Positions 7,033-61,215 of a stretch of 64,000 nucleotides of DNA are shown one piece after another. Location of the stretch: NCBI RefSeq assembly GCF_028858725.1, contig NC_084790.1, positions 3,354,001 to 3,418,000 on the forward strand, read 5' to 3'. Positions within the stretch are counted from its first letter, which is position 1; each line of letters starts with the position of its first letter. This stretch comes from Colius striatus. Taxonomy: Eukaryota > Chordata > Aves > Coliiformes > Coliidae. The translations under genes were made by a program, and so were the position numbers. The notes under the pieces are model-generated. The model made no database searches, was not told the DNA's origin, and worked only from the letters and a program-made list of their open reading frames with translations.

Positions 7033-9187
7033 ATGTCGGACAAAATGGCGGCGGCCGCTGCTTCTCCTCAGCCGCAGCCGGGCCCCGGCCCGCCGGCCCT
7101 GGAGGCCGAGAGCGGCCTCCCCCGCGGCGGTGGAGGCGGTGGGGTGGATGGGGAGGCTGAAGCGGAGGAGTTCGGGTGTCCGGCTCACTGCTCCGACCTG
7201 GCTTGGCGGCAGAACGAGCAGCGTCGGCACGGCCTGTTCTGCGACATCACTCTGGCGTTTGGCGGCGGGCGGCTCGGGGCGGCCCGCGAGTACCGGGCTC
7301 ACCGCTCCGTCCTGGCCGCCGCCACCGAGTACTTCACTCCTCTGCTGTCGGGGGACTTCGCGGAATCGCGTTCGGGACGTGTGGAGCTGCAGAAGTGGAG
7401 CTCGGAGAGCGGTCCCGACCCCGACACGGTGGAGGCCGTCATCGGCTTCATGTACACCGGCACCATCCGCGTTAGCCCTGGCAACGTGCACGAGGTGCTG
7501 GAGATGGCGGACAGGTGAGTGTGGCCCAGGGGAGGCGGGGGTCGGTTGGTCGCCAGGCCGCAGCATCAGCCCCGTTCGTATGTCCTGCAGGTTTCTGCTG
7601 ACGCGGTTAAAAGAGTTCTGTGGAGAGTTTCTGAAGAAGAAGCTCAACCTCTCCAACTGCGTCGCGGTTCACAGCTTGGCCCACATGTATTCCTTGAATC
7701 AGCTGGCCCTCAAAGCTCAGGATATGATCAGGAGAAACTTCCACAAAGTTATCCAGGACGAGGAGTTCTACACTTTGCCCTTTCACCTCATCAGAGATTG
7801 GCTCTCGGACTCGGAGATCACGGTGGACTCTGAAGAAATCCTCTTTGAGACAGTTTTGAAGTGGGTTCAGAAAAACCCCGAGGAGAGAGAGAAGTACTTT
7901 GAAGATCTCTTTAAGCTGCTTCGATTGTCCCAGATGAAACCCACTTACCTTACTCGCCACGTCAAATCTGAAATGCTGGTATCAAGCAATGAAGCCTGCG
8001 TTAAATTAGTGTCTGAAGCTGTGGAGAGTCATGCCTTGAGGTCTGAGAACCTACAGTCTGGTAACCTACAACATTCCACTTGTCCCGTAGCATTGTTGCC
8101 ACGTTTTGGACAAAACATGGACGTCATTATGGTGATTGGTGGTGTGTCGGAGGGAGGAGATTACTTGAGTGAGTGCGTAGGATATTTCATCGATGAGGAT
8201 AGGTGGGTAAACTTACCACACATACATAATCACCTTGATGGGCACGCTGTTGCTGTGACAGAGTCTTATGTTTATGTGGCAGGCTCCATGGAGCCAGGGT
8301 TTGCCAAGACTGTAGAAAGATACAACCCAAACAGAAATATTTGGGAGCAGGTTTCAAATCTGATAACCAGAAAGCATTCTTTTGGCCTTACTGAGGTTAA
8401 AGGGAACTTGTACAGTATTGGTGGACATGGCAATTTCAGTCCTGGCTTCAAAGATGTGGCCATTTATAATCCTGAGCACGACAAATGGCTTAACCTGGAG
8501 TCGGCACCAAAGATTCTTCGTGATGTCAAAGCTGTCTCTGTAGAAGACCGGTTTGTTTATGTTGCTGCTCGTACCCCGGTTGACAGTGACAGTGAGGATG
8601 GGTTGAGGGCAGTTATTATCAGATACGATGCTGAAACGAGGCAGTGGCAGGACGTAGAGTCTCTGCCCCTCATCGATAACTATTGCTCTTTTCAGATGTC
8701 TGTTGCTAACACAAACTTCTACCACACAGCATCGTGCTGCCCCAAGAGTTACCCCATAGATAACGAGGAAGCCACGGTAAAGATCTCTGGCAGGGCCTCG
8801 GATGAAATACTTGAAAGCTTACCCCCAGAGGTGCTTAGCATTGAAGGAGCAGCTATTTGTTATTACAAAGATGATGTTTTTATCATTGGGGGGTGGAAGA
8901 ACAGCGATGATATAGACAAGCAGTACAGGAAAGAGGCCTATCGTTACTGTGCTGAGAGGAAGCGCTGGATGCTTTTGCCTCCTATGCCTCAGCCTCGCTG
9001 CAGGGCCACAGCCTGCCACGTGAGAATTCCTTTCAGGTGCTTGCAGGGAACGCAAAGATACCCCATGCCACAAAACTTGATGTGGCAGAAAGATAGAATA
9101 AGGCAAATGCAAGAAAGGCAGATGCAGGAAATACACCGACACTCCCTGAGCTTACGGAGAATGCCGCGCTCGCAGATCGAGTGCTGA
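7033..9187 (+). CDS. KLHL11: Kelch-like protein 11 (BTB-BACK-Kelch), two exons
   Basis: Substrate adaptor of CUL3-RING E3 ubiquitin ligases. Exon 1 7033-7514 and exon 2 7591-9187 (stop TGA 9185-9187) give 692 aa; human is about 708. The start is the ATG in CCGCCATGTCGG; a second ATG lies four codons on. An Ala/Pro/Gly-rich leader (about 1-45) precedes a BTB domain (about 68-172: [24 protein letters not shown]), a BACK region ([38 protein letters not shown]) and a Kelch propeller ([50 protein letters not shown]). The single small intron after the BTB-coding exon matches mammalian KLHL11. The C-terminus has RQMQE twice in tandem where human has one copy, and ends SQIEC as in human. Confidence 0.97.
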
Positions 9188-16100: not shown

Positions 16101-17819
16101 ACCTGAGAAAGGCAAACAGGGAAGGTTAGGATATTAACACAGACGGTTTACACCTTGGCACCCTGTGTGGATCGCCTCAGTGCTGGGTGGCTTTGCTTTC
16201 AGGCTACAGAGTTGTCTAAAGCTTATTAGAGAACCAGAGAATTAAATACATAGTCTTTAGCTAGTCCAGAAAGAGGTGTGCACTTGATTTCATGGCAGGG
16301 AGCCTGCCACTGCCTTGGCATGGACTGAACTGGCTCTAACACCCGCTCTGTGCCTAGTATAGCTTGCCCAGGCAGCTGCTCATAAACTTTGTAGAGATAA
16401 CCTTGTCCCAGGTGAACATGGGGCCTTCCTGGATGTGAGGAATAATTAAAGCTCTAAACATGAGGAAATGTGCACTTAAAAGGTTTGCCCCAGCCTCCAG
16501 TGCAGGATCTTTAGCCCGTGCCCCAGCAGAGCACTAGCCTAATGGTCTGAAAGCTCCTTAGTCTTTGTTAGGAGGCTACAATTCCCCACAGTCTTAGAAG
16601 CAAAGCCAAGCAGCTCTGGCTCAGCTGCCTCATGCCTGGCTCTGCAGAGCAGAGCACTGACCTTGCTCAGCAAGACTGCGATGTGCTGCTTCCTGTTCTG
16701 TGGGTCGTGAGAAATCCACTTCACGACAGCTTTGAACACGGTCTCCTCGTGTATCACGTTGAGCTCATCCTGCTCAATGATGCGCTCGAGGTCGCTGATG
16801 GAGAGATCTACAAACTCTGGAGACTCCTTGGCTACGTCCTCAAAGTGATAGAGGATGAACATAAAGGCTGCTTCTTGCAGCTCAGGAAGGTAGTAGTAAC
16901 TTGTGAGTCGGAAGATGCCAATGCAGTTTTGCAAGCAGAGCTGGGATTTTAAGAAGCTGCAGCACAGCCTGACGAGGCCAGTGACATTGAACTGGTCTGC
17001 AGCAGTTAGCAAACTTTGGACGTTGTCCTCAGTGACCAGCACTGACCTGTTGTAGGCATACTCAATAATGAGCTTCATCATTTCGGGTGAAACACCAGGG
17101 ATTTTATACACTTCCTTCTCTGAGTTATTCCAGCTGCTGGTAAACAACGACCTGAAAGAAAAAGCCCCAAAGCAGTGCTGGAGGAAAAACCAGCTTTGCC
17201 TGTGTTAAACCCTGACCCCATTGCCCTGTTGCTTTCCCCAGGCACCAATTTGGGCACTGGCAGGAGCCAGGGCAGGAGGCCACACTGGGTATTAATTAAT
17301 GTTTTACTAGCTGATTGTTTTAAAAAGGAGTCACAGCCTCTGGCTGTGGACAGAGAGCAGTAAGAGTGCTTCAACAAGAATACCAGAGAGTAATGGTGCA
17401 TGGGGATGGAAAACCTGCTGCCTCATGGCCAGTTAGCCAGGCTGGCTGTGCTCTCAGCCCTGCACCACATCTGAGGTCTCGTCAGACACCACTTTCCAGG
17501 ACTGCTGTTCTAGGCTGTGGATTGATTCTGGTGCCCAGCCCAGTTCCAGGAGTATGGGGAACTGCTGGATGGGAGTTTTAGTGCAGGTGTGAGCACTGGA
17601 GACGCACTAAGGCAGCATGAGCCAGGCTACGAAATACTGCTTGTCCCTAAACCCTCTTGTTTCAGGCACTCACCTGAAATAGGCACTGCAGGTGCAAAGG
17701 ATGTTCTTGTGAGCACTGAACTCAACACCGTCCACAGTGATGATCACATCACAGAGTTTCTTTTCCAGGCGAAGCTCATTGAAAATGTTGCAAGCCATAC
17801 CACTCATCTTCCTCTCCAT
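13114..17819 (-). CDS. KLHL10: Kelch-like protein 10 (BTB-BACK-Kelch), five exons
   Basis: CUL3 adaptor of developing spermatids, needed for male fertility in mouse. Exons in transcript order: 17819-17674, 17151-16662, 16102-15485, 14348-14199, 13485-13114 (146, 490, 618, 150, 372 nt; stop 13116-13114), giving 591 aa; human has 608. Features: BTB ([40 protein letters not shown]), BACK ([33 protein letters not shown]) and six Kelch blades ([60 protein letters not shown]). The ATG chosen ([10 protein letters not shown]) aligns with an internal Met of human KLHL10; the 16 human residues before it have no counterpart I can see, and a 3' splice-like CTACCCTCAG sits just before the ATG. The exon 2 donor is GTCAGT. 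Introns 3 and 4 each hold a CR1. Confidence 0.95.
13840..14078 (+). mobile_element. CR1 3' fragment in KLHL10 intron 4
   Basis: Contains GGGCTCAAGTTGCCCCAGG, CCCTGGAGGGATCCCAAAGC and a decayed tail (AACCAAACCAATTCTATGG). It is one of seven copies of a GC-rich CR1 subfamily in this window, and antisense to KLHL10. Confidence 0.85.
14838..15317 (+). mobile_element. CR1 copy in KLHL10 intron 3
   Basis: Sense CR1 with an ORF2-end segment (CAGGGCCAGCAAGATGATCA), the 3' UTR (GGTGGGTGTCAGGAGGATGG, CAAGCTGCCCAGGGAGGGTG) and the 3' end GACCCTTCCAACCCCCACCA. Same subfamily as the copy at 6010-6733. Confidence 0.88.
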
Positions 17820-18655
17820 GTCTGAGGGTAGATACCTGGTGAGCACCAAGGCATGCCCACCTTGAAGCCTGAGGTGTGCTGGGACGTGTTTCTCCCTGAG
17901 GTGCTACAGGGATTCTTCAGAGTGCTTTTGCATTGCCTGGTTGCTATGGAGACACTTCATAAAGGGGCAGGGGGGCAGCTGGGGCCGGTTACCACTGCAG
18001 CAGTAACCAGCTTGGATGGGCAGGCAGCAGAGTCCTGGCACTTGCCAACCCCAGCCAAAGGATGCTGGGCTCTGGATCTATATGTTGCCAATGGCTGCTC
18101 TGAGCCAAACCAGCCTTTTGATTCCTCTGCAGCATTCAGATAGTGTTTAGCCTTGATATAAAGCTCAACAAATGGTGAGCACTGACTGCCCTCGTACTAG
18201 CTCACTCCAGAGGAAACTGAGATGTCAGTGATGAACCCACGAGTGCTCTGTCACTGCCACGTCTGCTGCCGATGTGGAGGGATGGAGGAAGCAGAGTTCG
18301 GGGACGGGCAGCCCTGTCCCGACTCCTCTCTGGCTTGGCTCACGGCCAGCTGCTTTTCCTCTGCGCTTTGGCTGTCTGTAGCTCACACGTGTGCCGGGGA
18401 GCACCTCCGTGAGGGTCTCACTGCGGGAAAACACTTGGGGCATCTTTTTCACATCCGTGTTCGTGTGGAGTTGTTTGGGTTTTTTTTTTTTTTTAAGCTA
18501 AGCGAGTTTTTGCGGTGACTCTCGAGGCCGTGCGAGGGGGGAAAAACACCGACCTTTACCATTTAACCCTTCGCCTCTCCTTTCTCTTTCGCCTTCCCGC
18601 CTCGGGGCGTGTTGCAGAGGAAACGCAACGGCGGTTTCGGACAAGGGGCGGAGCG
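17820..18655. other. KLHL10 5' flank towards the NT5C3B minisatellite
   Basis: Spacer of the head-to-head KLHL10/NT5C3B pair. It should hold the KLHL10 promoter but I see no TATA box in a convincing place. A T run lies at about 18480-18494. No gene or transposon is recognised. Confidence 0.4.
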
Positions 18656-18659
18656 GGCA

Positions 18660-19519
18660 GCCCCGGGCACCCTCCGAGCACTCCCGCTCGGGCTCCGGGG
18701 AGCGTCCGGCACCCTCCGAGCACTCCCGCTGCGGTCCGGGGAGCGTCCCGCACCCCCCTGCGGCATCGCTCCGGCCCCGGGGGGCGTCCGGCACCTCCCT
18801 GCGGCATCGCTCCGGCTCCGGGGGGCGTCCGGCACCCCCCTGCGGCATCGCTCCGGCCCCGGGGAGCGTCCGGCACCCCCCTGCGGCATCGCTCCGGCCC
18901 CGGGGAGCGTCCCGCACCCCCCTGCGGCATCGCTCCGGCCCCGGGGGGCGTCCGGCACCCCCCTGCGGCATCGCTCCGGCCCCGGGGGGCGTCCCGCACC
19001 CCCCTGCGGCATCGCTCCGGCCCCGGGGGGCGTCCGGCACCTCCCTGCGGCATCGCTCCGGCCCCGGGGAGCGTCCGGCACCCCCCTGCGGCATCGCTCC
19101 GGCCCCGGGGGGCGTCCCGCACCCCCCTGCGGCATCGCTCCGGCCCCGGGGGGCGTCCGGCACCCCCCTGCGGCATCGCTCCGGCCCCGGGGGGCGTCCG
19201 GCACCCCCCTGCGGCATCGCTCCGGCCCCGGGGGGCGTCCCGCACCCCCCTGCGGCATCGCTCCGGCCCCGGGGGGCGTCCGGCACCCCCCTGCGGCATC
19301 GCTCCGGCCCCGGGGAGCGTCCGGCACCCCCCTGCGGCATCGCTCCGGCCCCGGGGAGCGTCCCGCACCCCCCTGCGGCATCGCTCCGGCCCCGGGGGGC
19401 GTCCGGCACCTCCCTGCGGCATCGCTCCGGCCCCGGGGAGCGTCCGGCACCCCCCTGCGGCATCGCTCCGGCCCCGGGGGGCGTCCCGCACCCCCCTGCG
19501 GCATCGCTCCGGCCCCGGC
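18660..19519. repeat. CpG-rich minisatellite, 41-bp unit, 19 in-register units plus two diverged upstream units
   Basis: From 18759 the motif TGCGGCATCGCTCCGGCC recurs every 41 bp with no length change: starts at 18759, 18800, 18841 and so on to 19497, the last unit partial. Units differ only at four sites (C/T after CTCCGG, G/A in GGGG-GCG, G/C in GTCC-GCAC, C/T in CACC-CCC). Two diverged units carrying GAGCACTCCCGCT precede the array (about 18667-18752). The unit has no stop in any frame, so very long but meaningless open frames run through on both strands. The array ends about 80 bp before the NT5C3B start codon, inside its CpG-rich promoter or 5' UTR. Confidence 0.95.
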
Positions 19520-19601
19520 AGCTGCAACGGCCGCGGCGCCGCCCCCGCGCCGGCTCCTCCTCGCGGCTGCGCGGCCCCGGCGCGGCGCAGAACGGAGCGA
19601 G
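19520..19601 (+). promoter_or_regulatory. NT5C3B: NT5C3B proximal promoter / 5' UTR
   Basis: GC-rich, TATA-less DNA between the minisatellite and the ATG at 19602. With the array it forms a CpG island of roughly 1 kb. The exact start site is unknown, so part of the array may be transcribed. Confidence 0.4.
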
Positions 19602-22600
19602 ATGGTGAGAGCGGGGCCTGTGGGGCTGGGGTCGGGCGCCGGGAGCCAGGCCCGGCGGTTCTAAGGTGCAGGGTGGCGGGAGAAGCGGGCGGGGGGGGAG
19701 GCAAAGGCTGGCGCCGAAGGAGAGAGGACCCTTGGAGGGCAGGGCTGGAGGGAGGGTCGGTGGGTTAGGGGGAGGAGGAGAACGCGAGCATCCCTCTCCA
19801 TCCCGGAGAGGGTGCAGCGGGAGCTGGAGGGCGTCGGTCCCCAGGGACGGTGTCCGTTGGGAGTGTCGCTGAACGAAGGGGGCTTTTGCCTGTAGGTGCC
19901 TGAGCTGGAGAAAGCCACAGTCCGGATACAACAGCCGGAGCGCGTGATGGGGATAATCCGGTCCATCAAGGAGCAGGGGATGAACAAGCTGCAGGTACTG
20001 GCCCTTTCTGGCTCCTCTGTGATGGGTCTGGCCCGGCTGAGAGCTGCTGATGAGTTGCTCTCACCTTCTGTCCTTGTCTTCAGCTGCCGTCGCTTCCTCA
20101 GCCCTCCCAGCCACGTGCAAGGAAGCACCTTCTTACATCTTTTGCGGGTGGAGAGGGAGAAACCCCAGACAAGACAAGAGGGAGGAGGGGGCTATTCTTC
20201 TTGCCAAGGCCCTGGCTAACGAGCTGTCCGTGGATGGGGCTCTTTCTTCCCTGTTATGCAAGCTATAAATATGAGCCAATCCCCAGACACTCCCCTCCGC
20301 CCCCTCCACCCACAGCAGTAAGTCAGCAGGATTAAGCCATTTGGTGCTGATAAGAGTGGTGGGGTGGGAGGGGTGCTGGCTGTCTCAGATGCAGACATCT
20401 GCTTCACGGCTGGCAGGAGCATCAGCACCCGTTGCTGCGAGTCTGCACGCTCAGATGGGACCTGCCAGGGCTGGATTTGCATCCTTGCAAGCTGGCAGCA
20501 CCCTTGGCCAGCCACAGCGAAGGCACAGCCCCTGTGGGTCATGCACAGATTTGGTATTGTCTCCCCTTCCAGGTCATTTCTGACTTCGACATGACGCTGA
20601 GCAGGTTTGGGTGCAACGGCAGGCGCTGCCCCACTTCACACAGTGAGTTGAAGCTGTTGTTTGGACTGGTGCTAATTCCATTTGCTTTCTGTGTTTGTGT
20701 TCTCAGGCTCTGTGGCTCCTGTTATCCCCTGCCTTCCTCCTTTGCCAAGCCTGACCATTTCCTCCTGTTCTCCCAGTGCAGCTCAGGGCCTTGGCTACTT
20801 GCAGCAGCAGCTGCTGACCCCCAGGCAGCCCATAACTCATTGCAGAAACTCTCTCCTGCTCTTGCTGCCTCTTCTAATGCATTCATCCTGCAGCTTGCCA
20901 GCATTGGTGCTGCTCTTTCCCAGCCGAGCAGTGTCCTGCTGCAGGTTCAGTGGGAGCTGAACTCTCAACTGCTGTGTTGAGACCCCACAGCAAGGCTGTG
21001 CTTGGGTCAATGTGCCACACACGGCTCATTTTTGGGAAGGGCTGGCACTGGAGAGCTGCCTTTTAGAAAGCCTTTTCACGTTTCTGGGCTACAACAGTGG
21101 CATTTTATTGTCTTTTACAGATATCCTTGATAACAGTCGTGTTATCAGTGAGGATGGGAAGAAGAAGGTAGGTGCTGATCTGTAAGGCACTGCTGCTTGG
21201 CTCTGTTTTTCATCCCTATCACCATCGTCAGGAGGTTGTACTGGCTCTTGTGACAGCTCTCCAAGCTGCACCTCGCTTCCAGAGCAGAGAATGGGGCAAG
21301 TGTCCAGGCTGCATTTCAGCCAGAGGACATAGAAGAAGAAGTTAAAAAGGGAAATCTAATTTGCATGCTCAGCTGTGCACATTTTTGGTATGGTAAGAGG
21401 AGGAAGAGTCGTGTGTGTGTGCATCTGCACGTGCAACATTTGCAGCAAGGCGAGAGTCAGCCAGGCTGCTAGAGGGTTAATGCTTCCTCCCCACAGCTCC
21501 ACATTTGCCCAGAGTGCAGTTGTTTAGTGAAAACAGTTTTGGTTCTGTTTCCCATTAGGAAAGTGTGATGCTTTGGAGGAATTTAGAAGTGCTTTTGTTG
21601 TTGTTTACAGCCTCTTTAGAAATGATGCTCACTCCCTTCTTTATCTGTACGACCCTCCAGCTGAAAGATCTGCTGCACCATTACTATCCCATTGAAATCG
21701 ATCCCAACCGGACCCTGGAAGAGAAATGTCCCCTCATGGTGGAGTGGTGAGTGTTTCTCTGTGATGAGCTTCACCTTGTCCTGGCAATTTCTTGCCTGAG
21801 GACTATAAACCACAAGGCTTGAACTGCCTCTAGACTCAGTGGCAGTCCTGGGAAGTTTTAGTTGGTGTTTTTCTGACTGCCTTAAGGTTGCTGCCTAGGT
21901 TGGACTTGGATGATCTTGTAAGGTCCCTTCCAACCTGTAAGGTTATGTGATTCTGTGTGAAGCTCACTCTGCTGCCTTTCCCTAGGTGGACCAGGGCCCA
22001 CGAGCTGCTGTCACAGCAGAGGATCCAGAAGGGCGACATAGCCCAGATCGTCAGAGAATCAGATGTGATGCTGAGGTATGGGCTCAGGGTTTGTCTCCTG
22101 CCACTGCAAGAGGTCTCCTTGTGTTCACCCTGACCTGGGCATGCTGCAGATGCAAATCTGCCTTCCTTCCTGGGGCTGAGCTCTAATACAAAGAGCTAAA
22201 AGTCAGTGCCAAGAGCAGCAGCCTGAACTCACTGCCTGGCTGCTCACTGCTGACTCCTTCCTTCTCCCTTGAGTCTTGGCAAGGAGAGGCTGAGGGGGTG
22301 GGTGATGGGCAGAGCTCTCTGTTTGCAGGGCTGGGTAGGAGAGCAGCATGTAGCTCCCTTCTTCCAGGAGAGAATTTCACTGCAACTGCTGGGCCTTATC
22401 CAGGCCCTTGGCTCAGCATCAAGTTTCACCCACAGTACAAGGGTATTGCATGAGAACTTACTGCTGGAGTTGGCCTTGGCAGCAGTGGTCCTAAAACCAG
22501 CTCAGGGAGCCTTAGTTGGAGTGAGCTGCCAGTCACAGAGAGGAGATGGTGCCGTCTGTCTGTGTTTTTATGAGCCCAAGTTCGCTTTCTGCACAGAAAT

Positions 22601-33760: not shown

Positions 33761-34849
33761 AGTCCCTCCTCCGAGGCAGAAGCTGCCACAGCTCCTCGGA
33801 AGCGCGTCTGTGCAGCTCGCCCGGGTCCTAGCGCTGCCGCTGCTCCTCCACGCAGCCTCTGCCTGCTGCTGCCGCTCGGGCACAGCGAATGCAAGGAACT
33901 AACGGGTTTAACTAACACCTAAAATCGGTCTGCTGCTGGCAGACCTTGTATTGAATGGCCGTGGTTACAGATGTGAAGCTACCCCTCTGGCAGTCCTGCA
34001 CGGGTAGGAACGGCGCTGAACACACACGTAACGTGTTGTGGGCACATCCCTGCTCCCCCAAACTCATCTGCAAGACGGGCCCCATGGTGAGAGCCCGGCT
34101 GGGGACCCTGAGCTGCAACGTGGAGTCTCCAAGGCCCAGTGTTACTGGTGAGAGCAAAGGCTCAAAGAGCTCTCAGGTCCCTCTGAGCCCAGGCTTGGGG
34201 GTGCTCTGCAGCTCCCCAACACACTGCACCAGGGCTGAGCAACCTCAGAAGGGCTCAGAGTAGCTTAGGGAGACTCTCCACGGGGCACATTGGGGTCAGG
34301 GCCTGGCTGTGGGGCAAGTGAGCACACACTGAGAGGTGCCGGTGTCACAGCTCGCTGCTATCGAGCTGCTCCTTTGCAGGGAGGTGCTGTGCACCCCTAA
34401 CGACCTCTGCTCTGCAGAAAGAAGCTTCAGCGGCGTCCTGGCTCCTGCCCCACGCTATGACCATCCCTCAGTGCCACTGTCCAGCCGGCGACAAAGCGCT
34501 GGGCTTGGGCTGGGGCCAGCGTGGCCTGGCGCGGTGCAGCCCTGGGATCTGGCGCGGCACAGTGGTGTGGCCTCCGGCTTGGCACTAGCCAGCAGCAAGG
34601 CCGGGCACAGCCGAGCTGGGGGGTCCGGCCGCCTGCCCAACCGAGTGCAACCCGCAGCACCCGGCGGCTGCAACCCTGAACGCCTCACCGTGCACAGCCC
34701 CGGGGCCGTGCAGCACCCCCCACCCCGCTGCCCGGGCTGCACCCCAAGAGCGTTTATGTGCAGGGGCACGTGTCCCCGAACTTGACTCCCGCATCCCTCC
34801 CCGCACACCGCCGCGCAGACCCGCACTAAGACCCTGCGCGCCCGCCCCC

Positions 34850-34944
34850 GCGCTTGCCGCCCGCCCCTTCCCCCGCCGCCCGCCCCCCTGCGCGGAGCGG
34901 AGCCGGGCGCTGCGCGGGCAGTGCGCGGGGAGGAGGCGGCGGGG
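34850..34944 (+). promoter_or_regulatory. P3H4: P3H4 GC-rich proximal promoter
   Basis: A run of GC boxes (CCCGCCCC, CCGCCCGCCCCCC) and high CpG directly before the ATG. TATA-less. It is the far half of a divergent pair with FKBP10; about 1.5 kb separates the two start codons. Confidence 0.45.
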
Positions 34945-37900
34945 ATGGGCGGCGCGGCCCTGGCGCTGCTGCTGCTGGCGGCTGCGGGGTTGTGCGCGGC
35001 GCAGTACGAGGAGTACAGCGTGCGCGGCTTTCCCGCGGACGCGCTGGAGCCGCTGCAGCGCGCTTACGCGCGGGCGCTGGCTCAGTACGCGGATGCGCAG
35101 TGGGCGGAGAGCGCCCGGGCGCTGGAGGCCAGCCTGCGGCTGCACCGGCTGCTTCGCGACAGCGAGGCGCATTGTCACCGCCGCTGCGCCCAGCCCGCGG
35201 CGGGGGACCCCGCCGAGGAGCCCCCCGCGGAGGAGGATGGCGCGGCGTGGGAGTGGGAGCGGGAGATGCAGCTCTTCGGGCAGCTGCTGCGCCGCGCCGG
35301 CTGCCTGCGCGCCTGTAAGCGCGACCTGCCCGTCTTCCAGATGCGTTACCCCCCAGCGCAGACTCTGCGCGACTTCCAGCGCCGCTTGCCCTACCAGTAC
35401 CTGCACTACGCGCTCTTCAAGGTGAGGCGGGGGCGCGCAAGTGCCACGCAACGTGGCTGGCGGCGGTGGGAGGGGAGTGGGGGGAGTCCGGTGCCTCTGT
35501 CCCGTGTCGGTCTGGTCTGCACCTTTTGTCCTGCGCCCCTCCGTCCTGCCCCTCCATCCTAGCCCGCCCCCCGTCACACACCCCCATCTGCAGCCCCCCA
35601 CATCCTGCACCCCTCATCCTCTATCCACTAACTCCTCTTCAACACCCCCACTCTACATCTGTCCGCCCTGCATCTCCATCCTGTGCCCTCATCTGCACCC
35701 CCAGCCTGCAACCCCCTGATCTGCACCCCCCAAACCTACTCCCTGCCATCCTGCACCCTGCTTTGCCATCCTGCACCCCCGTTCCTGCTCTCCCTATCTG
35801 GCATCTCCCCCTGCCCTCCCCCCAGCTCCTCCATCCTGCCCCTGCGCCGTGGCACGTCGGCATCATCTGGGACGCATCAGGCAGGACGTGAGGGGTGAGC
35901 CTGGGACGGGGGGCCCAGGTGGTTGTGTCCCACCACCCCACCTTGTCCTGCTCTGGTCCCCCAGAGTGCCTTTGGCCAGGCAGAGTTGCCTGGGGAGGGC
36001 GATGTAGGAGCTGCCCCAGCCAAGGGGCCCAAGCTGGCAGGTCCAGTGCCCCTGTGATTGCTGCAGGACACGTGTCTGGATGCTCCATTGGGGAGAAGCG
36101 CTCGATTGGGCTCACGGTGCAGACGTGGAGGGAAGTTTCATAAGGCATTGCCCCCAGGGTGACTCTCCTTTGGCCAGAGTGGCTCTGGCAGGGGACATTC
36201 CCCTCCCCAGGCTCCCATGCTGGTCGGGGTCCCGCTCTGTGCCACTGGCTGGCTGCCGGGGCTGATGCTGCTTTAGTGCTTAGTGCTGCTGCCCTGCTCA
36301 CCTGGCAGCAGCGAGGGACAGCCTGGCCTAGATCCTTAATGCTTTTTCCTCTTGCTTGGTCTGGCCAGAACCCATCTCATGGACACTTAGTTCAGCTTCT
36401 CCCCCCCTCCACCCCCAGTCTTCCAACCGGAGAGCTCAGAAAGGAGCAGGGCAGCAGGGGCAGCTCACCCAGGCTGGTGGCAGTGCCCAAGAGGAGCAGC
36501 TGCCTGGATCAAATCCACACTGCATGAAGCAAACCCACACCACGTGGATCGTTGCTGGGTCAGTGTGGGGGCCCATGAGGGGCTGAGCTGTCCCCACACC
36601 CACCATGGGCACAGATTGATGTGGCTGCACTTATCTCCATTGTCCATGGTCCCTGGTTTTGTCTGTTACTGCAAGTGGATGATTTGGCTCAGGGCTGGTG
36701 GCACCATGGGTGCCAGGCTGTTCCCTCCCAAGCACCAGCCTTCTGGCCAGTAGTCCCCAGGGACTGGCTGAATGCTGAGCTCCCTGTAGCAGTAGCAGCC
36801 ACCCAGGTTGCCTTCACAGCAGGCAGCTGCATCAGCTCTTCCTCTCTCCCCAGTCAAATAAGATCGAGAAAGCGGTGTCTGCTGCCCACACCTTCCTGCA
36901 GAAGAACCCCAAGCACGAGATGACCTTGAGGTACCTGAACTATTACAGGACGATGCTGGACGTGGATGAATATCTGGTTGACCTCGAGGCTCAGCCCTAT
37001 GAGGTGAGGATGGGCCTCATTAATATTTACAAGTATCTAAACGGTGGGTGTCAGGAGGTTGGGGCAGGAAATCTAGAGACAGGACAGGGGGTGATGGGAT
37101 GAAGCTGGAACACAAAAAGTTCCATTTAAACATAAGGAAAAACTATCTCAGTGCTGAGGTGAGGGAGCCCTGGCCCAGGCTGCCCAGGGAGGGTGTGGAG
37201 GCTCCCTCCTTGGAGGTCTTCAAGATCCACCTGGACACATTCCTGTGTGACCTGATCTGGGAGGGACCTGCTTCTGCAGGGGGGTTGGGCTGGATGAGCT
37301 CTAAAGGTCCCTTCCAACCCCCTCCATTCTGTGCTTCTGTGGTGGCTGGGGCAGGACAGGGGCTCCCTGGGGCTCACTGTGTGCCTGGCTGCCAAAGCCT
37401 GGTCCTGCCAAACCCTGAGGGAAGTAGCTCTCCCTTGCTGGTCGCACGCCTCCTGTCACCAAATATGCATCTCTGTGGGGCCTGTGCTGGGGCTGCAGTC
37501 TCCTCGGCGTGAGCAGGGCAGGTTGGTGCTGCTGGGTGCCTAGAGGGGAGCTGAGCAGTGCCTGTTTGGTCCCTGGCAGCCGATATTCGTGCGGTCGGTG
37601 AAGCTGTACAACAACGGGGACTTCCGGAGCAGTGCAGCCGACATGGAGCAGGCGCTGGCCGAGTACTACAAGTCATACGAGGACTGCCTGGCCAGCTGTG
37701 AGGGTGCCTACGAGCTCCAGGAGTTCAAGGACTTCTACCCCGCCATTGCAGGTGACTGGGCAAGGGCCGGAGGGGTCAGTGGTGTCGGAGGGGAAGGGGG
37801 GCTGGGTGCTGATGGGGCACAATGGCTGTTGTTTCCCCACTCCAGACCACTTTGTGAGTGTGCTGCAGTGCAAGGTGGACTGTGAGACTGAGCTCACCCC

Positions 37901-39995: not shown

Positions 39996-42230
39996 CCAGC
40001 TGCCTCCACCTCGGGGCTCCCTGGGGCTGGGGTGTGCTGCTGCTGTGGGAGCTGCAGAGGCCCTGCCACGGGAGGGGAAGGGATGGACTGGGGGGCTGAA
40101 TGACCCCATAAAATGGAGGAGACACCCCAGAAGGGCTGGGGAAGGCCTGTGGGGCTGGAGAACCTTGGACTGTGAGAGTAGCCAGGCCCTTGTGAGGCTG
40201 AGGTGGGTCGTGACTACATTGCGACCCATGTGGGGCTCTGTGACTCCCCTCACTGTGCAGGAGAAGCTGACAAGTGACATGAGGTGGCTGCAGAGGGGTT
40301 GGGGGCAGCATGCCTTAGCCCACTGCGGTGTTTGAGATGCGAGATGCATCATCTGCTTGTAGTTTTGGGCAGGTGCATCATACTGCTGCTGACCCAGAGG
40401 GTGCAGCCTGCATCCCCCATGCTGGTCCAGGGTGGCAGAGTGGCACGATGCCCCGTCCCACTGGCATCAGGGCATTTCATAGCCCGTTCTGGAGGCTGCC
40501 ATGGCTGCAGGCAAGCCTGTGCCTGCCCTGGGCATGGAGTGTTGGGCAGCACGGGCACCTCGCTCCTCCCCATGCCTTCCTGCTCCCCGGGGAAGTTTGG
40601 CTTCGAGGACTGAAACCCAGAAGCTGAATCACGGCGTTTGCCCCCAGGGAGGGAAGGGAAGAGGAGGGGAGGGAAGGAAGGGGGCATCAGGGAGGCTGCC
40701 AGCACCCTGCCCTGCCCTGGAGCTTCCATTTGCCAGAGCTTTCCCAGCTCTACCCTCCCTGTGCGGGGCTCGGCATAGGGCTGGGGGCGAGCCCCTAGAC
40801 CCATGCGCAGGCCTCAGGGCTTGGGGCAGAGCTAAGGGGAGGTAGTGCTGGCAGCGAGAGCTTGGGAGGGACAGCCTGCCCTGTTCCCTGGGAGGAGCAG
40901 GGTTTGTCACGGATGGCTCATGGCCACGGTGGGGAGGGGAGCACCAGCCCCATGGGGTGTGGCTGGTGCCTGGATCAGTGGGAAGCTCTCAGCTCAGGGC
41001 GCTGGCGTTGCATTCCGGGGGGCAAAGGCTTGTTTATCTTCCCAACAGGCTGGGCAAGGGTGGCACAGTGCCCATGGGGCCTCCACCCTGCTCTGACACG
41101 TGCTTGGGCACGGCATCCCTTTGCCAGCAACAAACTCGCACTGGGGCACGTGGCTCCTCACTTCCACCTCTCTGCCCCTCGCAGCCCTGGGACGGGGTGT
41201 GCTGGGGTCCCTCCCCTGTGCCCACCTGCAGCTGCTTCCAGCTGGGTCTGGCGCTTCTGGTGTGACTCTGGCAGTGGCTATGGCTGCAAGCAGGGCCACC
41301 ACCCCCTGTGGCACGCAGGGCTGACGTGATGAGCTTCTCTGGCTCCCCTGACCTTGACTGAGAAGTAAGAGATGACTTTTTTGGGCATCTCAGCTGTGGT
41401 GTGCCGTGTGCCCCTCTCCTCGTGCTGGGAGGGCTCTGGCTGTGCTTTGCATCCCCCCCACTCTGTACATAGCAGTGAGATCCTGGTTGGTTTTGCAGGG
41501 ATGTTGGAGGTTCCAGCTCCTGCCTGCCCCCAGAGCTGTGATTTCCTGACTGGGTCAGGCCAGCAGCTGGATGCATCAGAGGACTGAGCAGCAGTCAGTG
41601 CAGGATCAATCCAGAGCAGAGCTCTCCTGACACCTAGACCTGGGGGGCTGGAGGACTGGGGATGCCCACCATGGTCTGGGGTGTGCCCTGGCATCGAGTG
41701 CTCCTTGGTGACGCGGGTGCTGGGTGGTGAAGGCTTCACCTGGGGCCTATGAGGAGCAGGTGAGCTGGGACGGGACGCGGCAGCAGCACCCGGCCAGACC
41801 AGTCTGTCAGGGATGGAAGTGACACAGGCTTCCATCAGCAGCCCGAGCCCTTCCCCAGCAGCTTTTGCTTCCACTGCCGGGCTCTTGCCTCAGTTTCCCA
41901 ACTCGGGCAGCATGCAGCCCCTAGCCAGGGGGGGTGGGTGACGCTCCAGGACCAGACCCTTCCCCACTGTTGCCATGCCTGGGCACCCATCGATGCCAGG
42001 GGATAGAGAGTGGCATCGCAACCGGGAAACCGGGAGTGGCGGGGGAGGCGGCTGCCGGAGGAGTGTGGGCAGGGGGGCGATGCGCAGGGGCGAGAGCGTG
42101 GGAAGCCCGGGCTGCCCCGCAGGGGTACCAGCACCCCACGTGTCGGGGGGCTCCCCCGCACCCCCATCCCGGGAGTGGCCTCGGGGGTCCCTGCGCCCCA
42201 CGGCCGCGCGCGGGGGTCCCGCCGGAGGGT
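39996..42230. other. P3H4-JUP spacer
   Basis: GC-rich spacer of about 2.2 kb. I see no gene, RNA, CR1 or tandem repeat; the numerous open frames reflect low stop frequency at high GC. Confidence 0.5.
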
Positions 42231-42239
42231 GGGGGGGGT

Positions 42240-42540
42240 CCCCGTGGCCCCGCCCCCGCCACACCCACTGACGTCATCCAGGTGGTTCCCCCTCGCGCCG
42301 CCGCGCCTTTTCCCCGCCCGCCGCCTCGCCCCGCCCACTGCTCCCCGCTGCCCAATCACCTGCCGGCGAGGGGCGGGGCGGCCGCGCCCCCGCCAATGGA
42401 CAGAGGATAAACACGTCCGTTGTGGGCGGGGCTGGCATTGACGGACGTGCCGGCTGTCCAATAGCGACCCGCCCAGGCGAGGCGAAGGGGCGGGGCCCGC
42501 GCTGTGGGCGGGGCGCGGCGCGGGGCGCTGCTCGCCTTTT
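42240..42540 (+). promoter_or_regulatory. JUP: JUP CpG-island promoter with CRE, CCAAT and GC boxes
   Basis: Palindromic CRE TGACGTCA at 42269-42276; CCAAT at 42352-42356, 42393-42397 and 42458-42462; several GGGCGGGGC boxes between 42340 and 42520. CpG density stays high to about 43.1 kb. No TATA box at a usual distance. Non-coding exon 1 follows. Confidence 0.65.
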
Positions 42541-42593
42541 GTTCGGGCAGGAGCGCGGCGGCCGCAGAGCCGCGGAGGGGACGCGCCGGGCAG
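42540..42593 (+). other. JUP: JUP non-coding exon 1 (5' limit estimated)
   Basis: The GC-rich leader ends at a strong donor, GGGCAG then GTGAGC (exon end 42593). It would join the acceptor at 52390/52391, seven bases before the start ATG. The 5' end is a guess. Confidence 0.45.
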
Positions 42594-45500
42594 GTGAGCG
42601 GGGCTGGGTCGGGCCGGGGAGCGCGGCAGCCCAACAGCCCCCCCCGGGCACGGGCAGCGCTGCGGCTGCGCGCGTTCCGCCGTGCTGGGGAGCGGCTGCG
42701 TGCGGGGCTGGCAGGAACCAGGTGTCCGGTGCGGTGCAACGCTGGGGCTGCCCCAGCTGGGTCCCGGCGCTGAGCTTCCCGCAGGCGGCGGAGCCGCGTG
42801 CTCCCCGTGAGCCCGGCTCGTCCCGCGTCATGGGGCCGGGGCGAGGCCCGTGGGGCTGCGGGCGGCCGAGCCCAGCCTGCGCGGATCCGGTCGGGCGGGT
42901 CCCCCGGGGGCGCGTCCCCCGCGGGCGGCCGCGTTTTGTCCCGGTTTCTCCCGGCCCCGCTGCCCCGCCCCGCCCGGCGCCGCAGGAGTTTGCAAGTTGT
43001 GATCCCCCGGCCCGCAGCCCCGGTGTGAAGCGGCGGCTCCGTCCCCGGCACCGCCCGGGCGCGCTGTCGGAGCCGCCGCTCCGTGGGTGAGGCGGCGGGG
43101 CGGTGTCGGGGCTGCGGGCGAGGCCTCGGCATGCGGCTCGCCCGAGTGGCCGTGGGGCTCTCGGGTGAGCCGTGGCTGCTGTGTGCCGCGGCCGGCGTGC
43201 CCCGAGCCCTGCCCGGTGTCCGCACGCTGCTGCCGTGCCCGCTCGGGGCTGCCGGCTGCTTTCCCAGGCTACGGTGGGTGGGGGGGTTGGAGGGGGTCGA
43301 GAAGGGATCGAGGGGGCTTGGTGTCACCCGGGCACCCCCACCGTGGTTTGGAAGAGTGCTGGGCTCCGCGCAGGGGAGGGGGTTCCCAGCTGAGCCCCCC
43401 GCGGGTGGCTGACGGCGGTTTATCCAGGCAAGGTGAGGGGAGCGAAACTCTGCCTTTTTGTCTGGTATTTGGAGAGGAGAGAGCGCTCTAATTGCGTTAG
43501 CTGAGTGATTAGCTTAATTAATCAGGTTTACAGATGAAAGGGTAGTACTGAAATGTTGCTGGGAGTTGCCCTGGGAAGGAGACGTAGGCTGTCTTGTGAG
43601 CAACTTGAGAGACATTTGTGCCGCGGGAGGAGAGGGAATGGCTGCTGAGACGGCGCGGCCACCCCCTAGGAGTGGTCCCGGGTGATCCACGTCTGTCGTG
43701 CCTGCATGGGTGAAGGCTGCAGCCTGCACCCCCTCTTGCCAGCCCCCTACACCACCTCCCTCAGCTTTCCTGCAGTGCTGTCGGGGTGCCTGGGCGAGCC
43801 CCATGCCTGGGGTGAAGCTTCCCGTTGTCTTCCCTGTGCTGGAAAGGTGGTGGGGGCTGGAGACACCCCAGAACCCAGCTGGGTCTGTCCCCTGCCATCG
43901 CTGCACCTCTTGCTCCAGCCCACGTTGTGCTGCTTTTGGTGCTTGGTGCCAACCCCAACACCCGGTTGTCTCGGGTCCATCTGCCATCGGGCTGGCGGGG
44001 AGCCGGGGGCGAAGCGTGTCGCTGCCAGCTGCCGCGGGGAACGGGGCTGGAGCCGTGCCGGGAGTGTGCTCTCGGGGCTGTCATCCACATCCAGGGGGGT
44101 GCAGTGCCCCAGGGGTCTGCTGCAGGGTGTGTGGCCCGGCTGGTAATGGGGCTGGGGAGATTTTTAAAGGCTGATGTGTTATCAGAGTTGGCTGGAAGGA
44201 GTGTAGAGTAACCCAGTGAAACAGCCTTTGCAAAACTGAAGCCTGTAATTGTTCATCGCTCTGGAGGGTTTCCATAAAGTGTCATGAAAAACTCATTTTA
44301 CTGTTAATTTGGCTGAAACAAGTTGGCCATTGGGATGGGAATGTGCAGAGATCCTGGCGTCGGTGGCCGAGGAGCGTTTTCTCTTCCAGGGCTGTCTCCT
44401 GTGTGGGTGCTGGGGAGATTCGAGTCCCCACGGCTCAGGGGGCTTGCGGGGTGCTGGGGGAAGGTGGGGTGGCTGTGGCAGGGCCCTCGCTTCCAGACAA
44501 TGGTGTTTACAGCCTATTGTCTGTGCGATGTGGCGTGTCCTCACCGGCTCCAGGAAGCGTGTTGAGCCGGGCTGCTGGGGAGGGGGAGGCTGTCAGGGCT
44601 GGGCACGCCAGGGACTTGTGCACTGTGGGGAAGCATCGACCACCTCAGCAATGCAGGTGACTCCTGGCTTGGCTGCAGCCAGGGACCCTTTAGAGAATTT
44701 CCCCTTTGGTCCCAGCGCTGTTGCAGTGTTCTATTCAAATGCTGTGCTAATCCCATTAACTCTCTCCCCTTTACTTCCCCCACCTGAAATCCTTAATCAG
44801 CTCTAGCAGCTGGGGCGGGCGGCTGTGGTGCAGCCACACGGCTTTTTCGGCTGAGGCTGTTCCTGTGATGATGGTTTCCTTTCAAGGCTGTGGTTTGGTG
44901 TGGGAGCTCTTGGATGGGATTTGGCTTTTTATTGCACTTCCAGATCTCAGGGGTTTAAGAAGGTTGCTCCTGCTTGCTCACAGATGGCAGAGCCTTCGGA
45001 GCCAAGGAGCTGCTCTAGGCACTCGCTTTGCAGGCTGGGGGAAGTGGAGGCTCTTTGCAAAGAACTTGCAAGGCTTTAATTGTAGCATCTGTACTGAGGC
45101 TTAACGTTCATCTCGAAGGTTTAAATTAGACTGGCTTCTAATTAACAGGAGTTTAAAAGAAGTTCAATTCCTATTAAAGCAGCTAGAGTCTACCTTGGAC
45201 TTGAGCTTTTACCTTGGTTTCAGCTGGTGCTTTCCCACCTTGTCAGGGTGTGTGCAGCACCCAGCATCACCCAGAACTGGAGCTTGGGTGGTGGCTCTCA
45301 GTCCCATGGGAGTGTGGGAAGTCCCAGGTCGATCTGGGTGGGTGGAAGCAGCTGGGACAGCAGCTCAAGAGGGCACCAGGACTGCAGCGTTGCCTTGGAT
45401 CCCTGCAGTATTCTCTGCTTTGGGAGGGTTGTTTTTTAATCCCCCTTTCCCCATGGACACTGTTTGGTGAAGCAATGGAGGATGGTGGGAGGGTGTGAAG

Positions 45501-60666: not shown

Positions 60667-61215
60667 GGTGAGGGTCAGTCTCTTCTCTCTAGTAATGCAT
60701 GATAGGAAAAGGGGAAACAGGCCTCAAATTGCCCCAGGGGAGGCTGAGGTTGGAGCTGATGCAGAACTGTTTCCCTGAGAGGGGTGTCAGCCCCTGTGCC
60801 AGGCTGCCCAGGGAGCTGGGGCAGTGCCCAGCCCTGGAGGGATCCCAGAGCCGTGGAGCTGAGGTGCTGAGAGCTGTGGGTCAGTGCTGGGCTGGGCAGG
60901 GTGAGAACAAAGCTGGGACTCCAGGAGCTGAGGGCTGTGGGTTAGTGGTGGGCAGGACTGGGACTCCAGGAGCTGAGGGCTGTGGGTTAGTGGTGGGCAG
61001 GACTGGGACTCCAGGAGCTGAGGGCTGTGGGTTAGTGGTGGGCTGGGCAGGGTGAGAACAAAGCTGGGACTCCAGGAGCTGAGGGCTGTGGGTTAGTGGT
61101 GGGCAGGACTGGGACTCCAGGAGCTGAGGGCTGTGGGTTAGTGGTGGGCTGGGCAGGGTGAGGGCAGGACTGGGACTGCAGGAGCTTCAAGGGCTTTTCC
61201 ACCCATTGTGACTCC
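60667..61215 (+). mobile_element. CR1 3' fragment within the JUP 3' UTR
   Basis: Sense copy of the GC-rich subfamily (CTCTAGTAATGCATGATAGG, GAGAGGGGTGTCAGCCCCTG, tail GCTTTTCCACCCATTGTGAC). Its interior has been expanded in tandem (60895-61175), making it about twice the length of sister copies. Confidence 0.88.
60895..61175 (+). repeat. 45/61-bp tandem repeat grown from CR1 sequence
   Basis: GCTGAGGGCTGTGGGTTAGT recurs five times in alternating 45-bp and 61-bp units; the long units add GGCAGGGTGAGAACAAAGC. Sister CR1 copies have this segment once. Confidence 0.88.

Follow-up and report, generated by a model that had tools for sequence, protein, structure and literature searches.

The window analysed here, a stretch of 64,000 nucleotides of the Colius striatus genome, contains, just upstream of the presumed start codon of NT5C3B, a minisatellite whose core consists of 19 copies of a 41-bp unit. 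We regard this array as probably a locally born, homogenised minisatellite of a CpG island, which is turned over by recombination in an island likely to be unmethylated in the germline, and which is near neutral in its effect. The repeat is real, but of an ordinary kind; as it stands, it is one more GC-rich minisatellite. A previous, sequence-only reading of this DNA had placed a CpG minisatellite at the promoter of NT5C3B; a location at the 5′ end of this gene is supported, the array and the presumed ATG being held by one CpG island (Table 1). The claim of the same reading that the array forms the NT5C3B promoter found, as worded, no support (see below).

Table 1. Features in and around the array, in the coordinates of the window.
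Feature	Position	Strand	Basis or remark
Presumed KLHL10 start codon	17817..17819	-	open frames further along encode BTB, BACK and Kelch domains
X-box-like (RFX) site GTTGCTATGGAGAC (121 bp before the presumed KLHL10 ATG)	17940..17953	.	pattern scan
CpG island holding the array (GC 0.74, CpG o/e 0.84)	18286..20015	.	CpG island scan
GC-box just left of the array	18646-18651		pattern scan
Fringe left of the core, two diverged copies of 42 and 41 bp	18666..18707 and 18708..18748	+	pairwise alignments
Minisatellite core, 19 x 41-bp unit, 4 variable columns, 6 CpG per copy	18740..19518	+	TRF and unit cutting
Stretch from array to ATG, 83 bp	19519..19601	+	GC-box and pyrimidine run; likeliest start-site region (inferred)
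GC-box between array and ATG (GGGCGG)	19539-19544	-	pattern scan
CTCCTC pyrimidine run	19554	+	sequence of the 83-bp stretch
Presumed NT5C3B start codon	19602..19604	+	gene model inferred; splice-donor-like GTGAG directly after; coding would resume at 19896

When TRF was applied to the 64-kb window, it reported a single array at this place (18685-19518, with a period of 41, 20.3 copies, 94% matches, and 0% indels), the score of which, 1445, is the highest of the 21 TRF rows in the window. The cutting of the assembled sequence into 41-base steps, counted leftward from 19518, gives 19 copies in register and without indels, which is the number of in-register copies given by the sequence-only reading; the start that it gave, 18759, lies 19 bases downstream of 18740, where the first good copy begins. 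The variation is confined, again as had been said, to four single-base positions of the unit, namely columns 3 (G in 12 copies, A in 7), 10 (G in 12, C in 7), 16 (C in 16, T in 3), and 37 (C in 18, T in 1), with the rest of the columns constant. There are only six distinct unit types, and the mean pairwise identity of the 19 copies is 96.7%; this uniformity supports the earlier suggestion of amplification or homogenisation. The unit is indeed CpG-dense: six CpG are kept in every core copy (114 in total), and the array has a GC content of 84% and a CpG observed/expected ratio of 0.86-0.87. With a unit of 41 bp and 19 good copies (20.3 by TRF), the array belongs to the minisatellites, which are defined by tandem units of approximately 10-60 bp. 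Its right end is abrupt, the final copy differing from the consensus by one base, and the distance from there to the ATG at 19602 is 83 bp, in agreement with the approximately 80 bp of the sequence-only reading.

A search of the window for an 18-base core of the unit, with up to three mismatches allowed, gave 20 matches where shuffled sequences would lead one to expect 0.05; 19 of these are exact, and all 19 are inside the array. The other one, a match with three mismatches at 7239, was judged to be due to chance rather than to a relative of the unit elsewhere in the window. A second minisatellite was reported by TRF at 60862-61195, where 45-bp units are nested in periods of 106 and 151 bp, and where two of the 45-bp rows have 100% matches.

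To the left of the core, pairwise alignments revealed a fringe of two diverged copies, which are cut in another phase than the core copies, and the second of which extends 9 bases into the first core copy. These two copies are closely alike and share parts of the core unit, from which their mid-portion differs by several substitutions and small indels; their CpG counts are 6 and 5. The description of the array as indel-free is therefore limited to the 19-copy core, since the two left copies (18666-18748) carry indels as well as substitutions. Taken with its fringe, the array has the look of an older edge beside a homogenised core, and its diverged copies are probably older remnants.

The order of the variants contains a hint as to how the array may have grown. 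Across the 19 copies, column 10 reads CGGGCGCGGCGGCGGCGGC, with a C recurring at every third copy from the seventh onward. The longest period-3 run in this column had a permutation p of 0.0013 (0.0047 when periods 2-5 are allowed), and the contrast between lags 3, 6, and 9 and the other lags had a p of 0.0015 (0.007 for the best of periods 2, 3, and 4), values which are to be read with the knowledge that period 3 was chosen post hoc, after inspection. The signal rests mainly on column 10, the multiples-of-three contrast without this column having a p of 0.11. Whole-code lag-3 tests using all of the columns gave p values of 0.07 and 0.08; when the maximum over lags 1-9 was taken instead, p was 0.06. 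The longest repeated block of unit types in the 19 copies was not longer than expected by chance (p 0.35). This order suggests, as a hint, that the array may have grown partly in blocks of three units (123 bp).

The island is 1.7 kb long and is one of six islands of at least 500 bp in the window. Short GC-rich tandem arrays are also present at 34839-34929 and 42892-42927, inside two other CpG islands (34486-35605 and 41986-43550). With respect to the core copies, the three columns that vary by a transition all lie outside CpGs, while column 10 is a G/C change inside a CpG, which it shifts by one base. The chance of finding none of three transitions at a CpG would be about 0.007 with a tenfold CpG hypermutability and 0.35 without it, for copies that are not independent. 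Since the variants are few, CpG retention is a weak test; it agrees, on few events, with an island that would be unmethylated in the germline.

NT5C3B is a nucleotide-recycling gene. The UMPH-1 pyrimidine 5′-nucleotidase domain was found in two of the three plus-strand downstream open frames that were scanned; the first downstream open frame, 19896-20219, had no domain match in the Pfam scan. A query pieced together from the exons matched seven PDB sequences, the first of which was 7zee, a 7-methylguanosine phosphate-specific 5′-nucleotidase (E 3e-93); the next five were cytosolic 5′-nucleotidase III (best 2bdu, E 1.6e-78), and the last was 4nv0, again a 7-methylguanosine phosphate-specific enzyme (E 3.5e-50). 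The PDB matches and the UMPH-1 domain fit the identification of the downstream gene as NT5C3B. The domain scan also found an FKBP-type domain to the right of the NT5C3B region, which fits FKBP10, and BTB, BACK, and Kelch domains on the minus strand to the left of the array, which fit KLHL10. We take both KLHL10 and FKBP10 to be neighbours of NT5C3B, as in the human gene order.

KLHL10 is a testis gene. That it is divergent to NT5C3B, as the sequence-only reading proposed, is supported by the minus-strand BTB/BACK/Kelch frames and by the presumed ATG, the presumed start codons at 17819 (minus) and 19602 (plus) being 1783 bp apart. That the array affects KLHL10 is less likely, given that 847 bp separate its left fringe from the presumed ATG of this gene, which has an X-box-like site 121 bp upstream. 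This site is the sole match in the window to the stricter of two X-box patterns and is a candidate KLHL10 element of its own. According to titles and abstract openings, RFX2 is a regulator of spermiogenesis; in this RFX2 literature, among the matches listed, KLHL10 is not mentioned. A near-palindrome (17987-18008, minus strand GGTTACTGCTGCAGTGGTAACC) is also present upstream of KLHL10 and could be a second factor site.

Could the array be a working part of the NT5C3B promoter? Each unit might add a binding site or open chromatin, such that the copy number would set expression. The position of the array, 83 bp before the ATG and within the CpG island, is in favour of this, and human promoter VNTRs with factor sites that affect expression have been described (PMC8096271). 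However, in a scan that used strict patterns, and which would miss looser or weaker sites, the array had no match to the promoter patterns tried (including GC-box, SP1, NRF1, ETS, CRE, YY1, CCAAT, ZBTB33, and the CTCF core). GC-boxes are present on both flanks of the array and none is inside it, and it is on these grounds that the array cannot be said to form the promoter. The 83-bp stretch would suffice for a compact TATA-less core promoter. We infer that the array, because it is in the CpG island, is promoter-side rather than the promoter itself; that it is a length-tunable part of the promoter is unlikely.

Several known systems resemble the array in part. The human CSTB gene (EPM1 dodecamer) also has a GC-rich, CpG-bearing tandem repeat in its promoter region, but the CSTB unit is 12 bp long and is present in 2-3 copies in healthy individuals and in at least 30 in disease (PMC10814315), whereas the array here has a 41-bp unit, 19 good copies, and no known effect. 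In humans, common minisatellite VNTRs are over-represented in CpG islands and in the 1 kb upstream of genes, the same location class as that of the array; the difference is that polymorphism has been demonstrated for them, whereas a single sequence is considered here (PMC8096271). Hron et al. 2026 (PMC12954441) describe, as “sequence stuttering”, the tandem growth of blocks that are tens to hundreds of bases long, likewise in GC-rich DNA: On chicken dot chromosomes, local tandem expansions are found in introns, the intron lengths vary between individuals, and recombination or meiotic gene conversion is one possible cause. These expansions are intronic, whereas the present array is found at a promoter and, if the inferred gene model holds, outside introns; neither “promoter” nor “CpG” occurs in the main text of that paper. 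By analogy, a process like the chicken intron expansion, but inside a CpG island, would account for the array without a special function. A stronger version, in which the array would be a promoter-side counterpart of stuttering, with PRDM9-free island recombination growing unmethylated multi-unit blocks and promoter length shifting fast and tuning NT5C3B, is distinctly unlikely. Among the literature matches listed, no title or abstract opening reports a repeat in the NT5C3B promoter, which is no proof of absence; to judge by title and abstract opening, nothing in the literature that names NT5C3B and KLHL10 together is about the array repeat.

The folding and G-quadruplex tests revealed no structural cause for the array. 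No G-quadruplex motif was found on either strand with loops of up to 7 (18700-19518) or up to 12 (18740-19518), and the idea of a G-quadruplex-forming minisatellite was rejected, four G-runs with short loops being found on neither strand; motifs of this kind are present a short way downstream of the array, on the plus strand (within 19613-19772). An unusual single-strand fold was rejected too, since DNA folds of four two-unit stretches were no stabler than those of shuffled sequences (z 0.12, 0.14, 1.78, and 0.06). Inverted repeats of at least 20 bases were sought in 17800-19950, where there are two pairs, both 75% complementary and neither in the array.

Another question is whether the length or uniformity of the array could be an artefact of assembly, that is, a collapsed, expanded, or over-polished repeat. 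The tandem-repeat-filled non-coding parts of certain GC-rich chicken genes were missed by Illumina sequencing and are poor in PacBio data (PMC6792250), and the copies here vary at four columns only. However, the six unit types are interspersed along the array, diverged fringe copies flank the core, there is no N anywhere in the window, and the very stable secondary structure blamed in PMC6792250 was not found in the array. An artefact is, on balance, very unlikely.

Finally, it is scarcely credible that the array is transcribed and translated, either as an N-terminal repeat extension of NT5C3B or as an antisense repeat protein: stop triplets are absent from the array in all six frames, five of the listed open frames, 313 to 477 aa long (two plus, three minus), run across it, and one on the plus strand, 18609-19664, shares the phase of the NT5C3B ATG, but open frames are expected at 84% GC, each frame cycles through three readings because 41 is not a multiple of 3, the units have no ATG on the plus strand, and the two of the five crossing frames that were scanned had no Pfam match. 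A minus-strand ATG, from GGCATCGC, is present in all 19 core copies (18740-19518). With this ATG in each copy and no stop triplets in the array, composition by itself can be enough to produce long antisense open frames.

For a homogenised CpG-island minisatellite, the reading that we prefer, the following origin may be proposed. A 41-bp piece of the island would have been duplicated in tandem, and unequal exchange or gene conversion would then have amplified and homogenised the core, perhaps partly in 123-bp blocks. Since germline methylation is probably absent from the island, its CpGs would not decay. Birds have no PRDM9, and their CpG islands draw meiotic recombination, which, as the presumed driver, would supply the exchange. 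In the zebra finch, an enrichment near CpG islands is seen for crossovers and for non-crossovers alike, which is what the lack of PRDM9 would lead one to expect (PMC12047795), and in the chicken, minisatellites are commoner on chromosomes 16, 21-23, 25-28, LGE22, and LGE64 (PMC4992247). The array would be tolerated because it would lengthen the island on the upstream side of a compact core promoter, presumably located within the 83 bp that precede the ATG. Individuals probably differ in copy number, and its effect on NT5C3B would be little or modest. If the length does vary, the array would offer a natural test both of whether CpG-island recombination without PRDM9 drives the growth of promoter repeats and of whether the length of a promoter repeat matters for a gene such as NT5C3B.
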